NCBI GenBank assembly: GCA_902763685.1
Contig: CACWTF010000005.1
Coordinates: 1 to 34,821, forward strand
Length of the DNA: 34,821 bases
Source: a methanogenic archaeon
Lineage (GTDB): Archaea > Thermoplasmatota > Thermoplasmata > Methanomassiliicoccales > Methanomethylophilaceae
Reading direction: 5' to 3'
The position numbers and the translations under genes were made by a program. This document shows, piece by piece, positions 1,200 through 15,300 of the stretch (positions are counted from its first letter, which is position 1; every line of letters begins with the position of its first letter). The notes beneath the pieces were generated by a model, which was given only the letters and a program-made list of their open reading frames with translations, had not been told where the DNA came from and searched no databases.

Positions 1200-1307
1200 T
1201 CACTTCTTGCGCATCTTTGCTGCTCTCTTTCTTCTTCTCATTTTCTTCTTGCGCCATTTCCAACGCTGGTTACCGCGTTTCTTCCAGGCGCGTGAGCCTC
1301 TCTTCAT
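1200..1307 (-). CDS. rpl41e: Ribosomal protein eL41 (L41e), 35 residues
   Basis: A 36-codon minus-strand frame encodes a very basic peptide whose core RWKWRKKKMRRRKR matches the compact single-helix ribosomal protein eL41, which in yeast is only 25 residues. The start ATG at 1307-1305 is preceded by a purine-rich GAGGAAGG ribosome binding site and the frame ends in TGA. About 10 extra N-terminal residues precede the conserved core, so initiation could in principle be further in, but no ATG with a better site exists there. eL41 sits at the subunit interface in archaeal and eukaryotic ribosomes. Being this short, it is easily missed by gene finders. It lies between two intron-containing tRNAs and is probably co-transcribed with them. 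Confidence 0.85.
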   Translation of the reverse strand: MKRGSRAWKKRGNQRWKWRKKKMRRRKRAAKMRKK

Positions 1308-1352: not shown

Positions 1353-1451
1353 CGGGCCCGTCGGGACTTTCGGTTCCTTATTAGGGGACTTTCGAACCCG
1401 AGGCGTCTGGCTTAGAAGGCCAGCGCTATATCCTGGCTAAGCCACGGGCCC
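1353..1451 (-). tRNA. tRNA-Arg (UCU) with an intron in the T-loop
   Basis: The acceptor strand GGGCCCG (1451-1445) pairs with CGGGCCC (1360-1354). The discriminator is G1353 and CCA is encoded at 1352-1350. The anticodon stem CTGGC/GCCAG (1423-1419 with 1411-1407) closes loop CTTCTAA, giving anticodon UCU (1416-1414). T-stem TCGGG (1401-1397) pairs with CCCGA (1365-1361), but 31 nt separate the two strands instead of 7. Removing 24 nt restores the canonical T-loop TTCGAAT, so I read this as an intron between positions 59 and 60, not a broken gene. A TATA-like TTTAAATC lies about 28 nt upstream. This tRNA reads AGA/AGG codons. Confidence 0.88.
1367..1390 (-). other. 24-nt non-canonical intron in the tRNA-Arg T-loop (59/60)
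   Basis: The junctions fit a textbook bulge-helix-bulge. T-stem TCGGG/CCCGA is followed by a 4-bp helix TTCG (1396-1393)/CGAA (1372-1369), flanked by 3-nt bulges AAA (1392-1390) and AGT (1368-1366). Cleavage after the second base of each bulge, as the archaeal splicing endonuclease does, leaves exactly TTCGAAT between the T-stem strands. The 10-mer CGAAAGTCCC occurs twice, once at each end, hinting that the insert arose by local duplication. Introns at 59/60 are known from some Thermoproteales tRNAs. Confidence 0.8.
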
Positions 1452-1475: not shown

Positions 1476-1485
1476 GATTTAAACC
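1476..1485 (-). promoter_or_regulatory. TATA-like element for the tRNA-Arg/eL41/tRNA-Trp cluster
   Basis: On the minus strand this reads GGTTTAAATC, centred 28-29 nt upstream of the tRNA-Arg 5' end. No other promoter-like element separates tRNA-Arg, eL41 and tRNA-Trp, so one transcript is plausible. Confidence 0.5.
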
Positions 1486-15194: not shown

Positions 15195-15300
15195 TGTCGG
15201 GAGAGGGGTTCGAACCCTCGGCCTTCGGATTTCCCTGGTGAGGTCAGTTTTAACCTGAACCCTATGAGTCCGACGCTCTACCAGGCTGAGCCACCCCGAC
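15195..15300 (-). tRNA. tRNA-Met (CAU, elongator) with a 32-nt intron
   Basis: Acceptor GTCGGGG (15300-15294) pairs with TCCCGAC, with discriminator A15195 and CCA encoded at 15194-15192. The anticodon stem TCGGA/TCCGA closes CTCATA|A, with anticodon CAU at 15266-15264. Bases 15262-15231 form an intron at the usual 37/38 site. The bulge-helix-bulge is imperfect: C32-G, U33-G and C34-G pairs form, then an A-A mismatch, and the intron arm is closed by GGT/ACC. T-arm is GAGGG-TTCGAAC-CCCTC. A CAU anticodon can also belong to tRNA-Ile2, but an intron here is typical of elongator Met. TATA-like TTATAA lies 28 nt upstream. Confidence 0.9.

Follow-up and report, generated by a model that had tools for sequence, protein, structure and literature searches.

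A tRNA-Arg(UCU) gene with a predicted T-loop intron in a methanogenic archaeon and the occurrence of such introns in Thermoplasmatota

The tRNA-Arg(UCU) locus

The stretch analysed, here called the window, comprised 34,821 nt (positions 1 to 34,821 of contig CACWTF010000005.1, assembly GCA_902763685.1) from a methanogenic archaeon of the family Methanomethylophilaceae, order Methanomassiliicoccales, phylum Thermoplasmatota. A 99-nt pre-tRNA-Arg(UCU), conserved in the genus, was located on the minus strand at nt 1353–1451 and had, from 1451 to 1353, the layout GGGCCCG...CTTCTAA...TCGGG TTCGAA AGTCCCCTAATAAGGAACCGAAAG T CCCGA CGGGCCC G. Exon 1 (nt 1391–1451, 61 nt, tRNA positions 1–59) had the same 61 bases in most intron-bearing family members, and exon 2 (nt 1353–1366, 14 nt, positions 60–73) was delimited from the sequence and from intronless orthologues. 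Between them, after T-loop position 59, lay the 24-nt insert AGTCCCCTAATAAGGAACCGAAAG (nt 1390–1367), interpreted as an intron between positions 59 and 60. The anticodon UCU (DNA TCT, nt 1414–1416) was assigned by running ARAGORN on the spliced sequence. A TATA box-like TTTAAAT (nt 1477–1483, minus strand) was situated 26–32 nt upstream, a motif present in nearly all orthologues with or without the intron, and a 35-aa eL41-like ribosomal protein, so named from its sequence alone and useful as a synteny marker, was encoded directly downstream (nt 1200–1307, minus strand).

The initial annotation had described this gene as a tRNA-Arg(UCU) with a 24-nt intron in the T-loop, and all of its coordinates proved correct. 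The T-stem strands TCGGG (nt 1401–1397) and CCCGA (nt 1365–1361) were, as it had noted, separated by 31 nt; taking out the insert gave the canonical T-loop TTCGAAT and a perfect tRNA of 75 nt, called tRNA-Arg(tct) by ARAGORN. The junction, TTCGAA/T between T-loop nucleotides 59 and 60, was the same in 17 natural intronless orthologues, in keeping with both the 59/60 site and the predicted cuts. Other kinds of intron were ruled out. The anticodon loop CTTCTAA was continuous, leaving no canonical 37/38 intron; group I and group II introns possess a ribozyme core of hundreds of nucleotides, and the insert had 24 nt with Rfam matches at the gene to tRNA only. Two further intron-bearing tRNA genes were present on the minus strand of the window. 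tRNA-Trp(CCA) (nt 1005–1173) had a large anticodon-loop intron (83 nt according to ARAGORN) that weakly matched archaeal C/D box sRNA families, an ordinary arrangement in archaea; an elongator-type tRNA-Met(CAT) (nt 15195–15300), mislabelled tRNA-Ser(cga) by ARAGORN, was interrupted at the canonical 37/38 site by roughly 34 nt of intron.

That standard searches could miss or mis-score the tRNA-Arg(UCU) gene, as had been anticipated, was confirmed: ARAGORN made no call for the unspliced gene, alone or in the window, and the Rfam tRNA model gave a truncated match of 31.1 bits, versus 62.6–63.3 bits for intronless orthologues. The genome (93.8% complete) gave 42 tRNA matches; read with ARAGORN and by eye, they included arginine tRNAs UCG, CCU and CCG but no second tRNA-Arg(UCU), and BLAST of the genome with the spliced form returned one gene. 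The gene at nt 1451–1353 is thus the only tRNA found in the genome that is predicted to read AGA, a codon in use in the long ORFs of the window (36 of 9670 codons). Missed by simple tRNA finders as it is, the gene might be taken for a decaying pseudogene with a random T-loop insertion; this is highly improbable, however, as AGA is used and the assembly has no other UCU tRNA, while the exons are almost constant over ten genera and the fold of the insert and the promoter are retained. tRNAs Asp(GUC), Tyr(GUA) and Arg(GCG) were also absent from the tRNA list of this genome (G000), for which assembly gaps or introns may account.

Precursor fold and splicing enzymes

The precursor could be folded into a strict bulge-helix-bulge (BHB), with the T-stem outside it and a short inner helix within the intron. 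Its 4-bp central helix was formed by TTCG of the T-loop (nt 1393–1396, positions 54–57) and CGAA inside the intron (nt 1369–1372), flanked by the 3-nt bulges AAA (5′ side, nt 1390–1392) and AGT (3′ side, nt 1366–1368), all on the minus strand. From this geometry, cuts are predicted between nt 1391 and 1390 and between nt 1367 and 1366, the product being that seen in intronless orthologues. In the inner helix (minus strand), GTCCC (nt 1385–1389) pairs with GGAAC (nt 1377–1373) with one C.A mismatch, and compensatory changes in relatives support the pairing. The same BHB had been proposed initially; its coordinates were verified, and it was retained in 29/29 distinct introns of the family and in 16/16 outgroup introns of the order. 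When the insert was shuffled, a four-pair central helix appeared in 3% of the shuffles.

The same anatomy was found again in a total of 79 distinct introns, in which 291 of 316 central-helix cells were paired in register, compared to at most 217 when the strands were slid by one. Three or more pairs stood at the start of the inner helix in 70 of the 79, whereas 500 shuffles gave 5.7 on average and never more than 15; these figures serve as a guide and give no probability, since the 79 sequences are kin and some distant introns were picked by a pattern that predetermines some of the 3′ side. Among five outgroup T-arms that were alike in length, both members of five pairs had changed, and the covariation score was reached by 0 of 500 shuffles. 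No inner-helix covariation above shuffles was detected in 17 equal-length family introns alone, and the signal came from cross-genus and cross-family comparison.

A single splicing endonuclease was encoded by the genome, as an ORF of 356 aa (L137:706–1776) containing PF02778 and PF01974 stretches, two of each, in one chain, that is, two N-terminal and two catalytic domains fused. Alpha'2-type endonucleases are homodimers of a chain in which two repeats are fused and catalysis is left to the C-terminal repeat. By domain layout, the 356-aa protein is a predicted tandem, alpha'2-type enzyme; its matches to chains of known type included A. fulgidus 1r0v/2gjw, and the catalytic Y, H and K were read by eye in its C-terminal half. 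Enzymes of the alpha'2 type have been described as narrow, taking the canonical BHB (PMC6379350), and the predicted fold of the window intron is a canonical BHB of the kind they accept. Within Thermoplasmatota, minimal BHB substrates are cut at 30°C by the homodimeric endonuclease of Ferroplasma (PMC8707768). A gene for RtcB ligase was also present in the genome (G000:C10:21986–23290, 574.8 bits).

In the proposed mechanism, the T-arm of the precursor would wrap the intron, T-loop TTCG pairing with intron CGAA between the two 3-nt bulges; the tandem (alpha'2-type) endonuclease would cut each bulge between its second and third base, freeing 24 nt; and the ligase, RtcB in archaea, would join A59 to U60, restoring the loop TTCGAAU. 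In the cell, the tRNA would presumably be cleaved, ligated and charged. In the red alga Cyanidioschyzon merolae, Pus4 is unable to modify U55 of tRNA-Ile(UAU) while the T-intron is present (PMC9602550). That intron similarly places a BHB in the T-loop, although it belongs to a eukaryote and is one of three in its tRNA; by analogy, splicing may precede T-loop modification in the window tRNA as well.

The tRNA might instead work unspliced with an enlarged T-arm, and the whole molecule does fold stably with the insert lengthening that arm. A T-loop of 31 nt would, however, be expected to abolish the T-loop/D-loop contact; moreover, the length and sequence of the intron vary freely outside the BHB and sister genera have exactly the spliced form, so that function without splicing is very hard to credit. 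The analysis showed the sequence, the fold, its conservation with compensatory change, natural intronless orthologues equal to the expected spliced form, and genes encoding the endonuclease and the ligase; the locus is very probably a functional intron-bearing tRNA-Arg(UCU) gene spliced at the BHB, its intron ancestral in the order and lost several times.

Relatives and history of the intron within the order

The initial annotation had suggested a search for the insert in related genomes. Within the genus, the gene was found in 10 of 14 genomes and had the intron in every one, the other four being drafts with no match to the gene. In the family, introns of 19–27 nt with differing sequences were present in genera g1, g2, g3, g4, g6, g7, g8, g10, g11 and g14, and the first 61 bases (exon 1) hardly varied across these intron-bearing members, while the intron varied in both sequence and length. 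In genera g5, g9 and g12 the same gene was intronless, all 17 copies examined reading TTCGAA followed by T and the T-stem, as in the predicted product. The eL41-like gene followed both forms in most loci with enough sequence, and TTTAAAT lay at about equal distance upstream; thus, intron-bearing and intronless forms represent the same locus. With the BHB held while intron sequence and length vary, and with exactly this segment missing from 17 orthologues, the comparison of relatives strongly supports the intron reading.

A 10-mer, CGAAAGTCCC, occurred twice, once at each end of the insert, as had been pointed out together with the proposal that the intron was born by local duplication. The repeat is present, but the proposed origin is not supported. 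The two copies were 22 nt apart rather than 24, so that simple duplication of CGAAAGTCCC would give a 9-nt loop; the CGAA portion must recur in any strict BHB at 59/60, TTCGAA being a palindrome; and the remaining bases of the 10-mer repeat were limited to the genus, the homologous introns of sister genera ending in CGAAAT, CGAAAA or CGAAAC and those of outgroup families likewise being without them. The intron is, moreover, older than the family. It has been suggested that insertion can generally be recognised by direct repeats close to the intron borders (PMC11782384), which would favour a recent origin in this lineage by duplication of CGAAAGTCCC; tested against the relatives, this was rejected as contradicted by the distribution, and we consider it most unlikely.

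In families f2, f3, f5 and f6 of the order, the same tRNA usually had both the canonical 37/38 and the 59/60 intron; family f4 had the 59/60 intron only, genus g30 of f6 the 37/38 intron only, and one f5 genome neither. In a tree of the endonuclease, intronless genera were nested among intron-bearing ones and the window's family adjoined the two-intron families. These placements point to a 59/60 intron ancestral in the order with several losses, the counts of which are rough as the tree takes in one protein from 29 of 43 chosen loci (a motif filter removed the others) and has weak inner branches. The 59/60 intron of tRNA-Arg(UCU) is best read as already carried by the order's common ancestor and as much older than the genus, and the canonical 37/38 intron as lost in the window's family.

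T-loop introns across Thermoplasmatota

Outside the order, genes for tRNA-Arg(UCU) with 59/60 introns were found in three families of its class (f8, f14 and f19) and in two families from other parts of the phylum (f37 and f60). Scanning named genomes gave at least 111 loci parsing as tRNA-Arg(UCU) with a 59/60 intron (111 of 119 among the matches listed), the labels among these matches including Methanomassiliicoccus, Ca. Methanoplasma, Ca. Methanomicula, RumEn M1 and M2, Ca. Lutacidiplasma and many Thermoplasmata MAGs. Eight of the 119 listed loci did not parse as tRNA-Arg(UCU): five with bacterial names, which look like chance matches, and three on archaeal contigs, with truncated or variant genes. 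Contig DBQY01000003.1 (L229:3624–3682), labelled Atopobium sp. UBA1382, had an archaeal tRNA-Arg(UCU) with the intron and is probably from a mislabelled bin.

Other tRNAs were affected as well. With a T-loop pattern applied to 13 genomes, 59/60 introns were found in about ten further tRNAs, those for Lys, Arg(CCG), Arg(CCU), Glu, Gly, Asp, Ser, Gln, Leu and others, the anticodons being partly uncertain where a second intron was present. The same pattern detected none outside the UCU gene in the window's genus (G000, G001 and G004). In the phylum-wide pattern search, a reversed control pattern also matched in some genomes; for this reason, matches not parsing as tRNAs (L181, L182, L188 and L189) were set aside. 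In f37 and f60 (L402–L408, L183–L186), many tRNAs had 59/60 introns, several of which started with TGCATG, as though copies had been passed from one tRNA gene to another. An f37 gene with the loop TTCA had TTGA in its intron, so that A57-U takes the place of the G57-C pair of TTCG genes. In f14 (L166–L175, L190–L209), which includes Ca. Lutacidiplasma, 23 of 26 introns had an A57 mismatch in the central helix, A57 lying opposite G or A in most genes, a relaxed motif; the f14 endonucleases were likewise tandem chains.

The initial annotation was right that 59/60 is a known intron site, but its picture of an oddity of this kind of methanogen was too narrow, the UCU intron being order-wide and 59/60 introns of other tRNAs phylum-wide. 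Whether 59/60 introns in the window's order and in other orders and classes were gained independently at one favoured site is a close question, with independent gains judged somewhat short of an even chance. Distant families have 59/60 introns in many tRNAs, so that a UCU carrier is in itself no sign of descent and phylum-wide inheritance of the UCU intron is conjectural, and intron sequences could not be aligned between orders; on the other hand, six families of the order have the intron in the same gene, which fits descent with losses, and several families of the same class have it in the same isoacceptor.

Position 59/60 is among the listed intron sites of archaeal tRNAs, and Euryarchaeota have been described as having single canonical introns and alpha4 or alpha2 enzymes (PMC4090602). 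Non-canonical introns have been described as a feature nearly confined to crenarchaea, the exceptions being three thermophilic methanogens of the Euryarchaeota (PMC3218864), and go with a broad-specificity heterotetrameric (alpha-beta)2 endonuclease (PMC4090602, PMC6379350). The 59/60 introns of Thermoproteales and other crenarchaea resemble the window intron in position, BHB geometry and size range, but are served by an (alpha-beta)2 enzyme, whereas the window genome, from a methanogen lineage, encodes a tandem alpha'2-type enzyme; canonical 37/38 introns share the strict BHB and the same enzymes and differ in position. Permuted tRNA genes of Thermofilum pendens and C. merolae also have their junction at 59/60 (PMC3218864), although the exon order of the window gene is normal. 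A recent report describes many non-canonical tRNA introns in the Asgard Atabeyarchaeia and Freyarchaeia (PMC11291895), likewise outside Thermoproteales but in another phylum. The default search of tRNAscan-SE 2.0 includes such introns (PMC8450103), and some 59/60 introns may thus sit unremarked in databases. The main text of a genome comparison of Methanomassiliicoccales does not mention tRNA introns (PMC4153887), and no paper describing the present distribution was found among open-licence literature.

The kind of intron and its position are thus already known, and what is new is their breadth in Thermoplasmatota, where such introns were thought nearly absent; how old and how widely spread they are there is the surprise. 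Tentatively, and with slightly less than even confidence, we suggest that the phylum may have an old class of T-loop (59/60) tRNA introns of its own, in about ten isoacceptors and with an alpha'2-type endonuclease, against the rule linking them to crenarchaea and (alpha-beta)2 enzymes; the f14 enzyme would also have to tolerate a relaxed motif. For annotators, a gene that scores about half under a general tRNA model and escapes ARAGORN means that genomes of the order can seem to be without an essential tRNA. One gene, moreover, provides a comparative series with both introns, the T-loop intron only, the anticodon intron only or none, making intron loss and the supposed coupling between endonuclease type and intron position directly testable. 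These findings correct the view of euryarchaeal tRNAs as carrying single, canonical introns.
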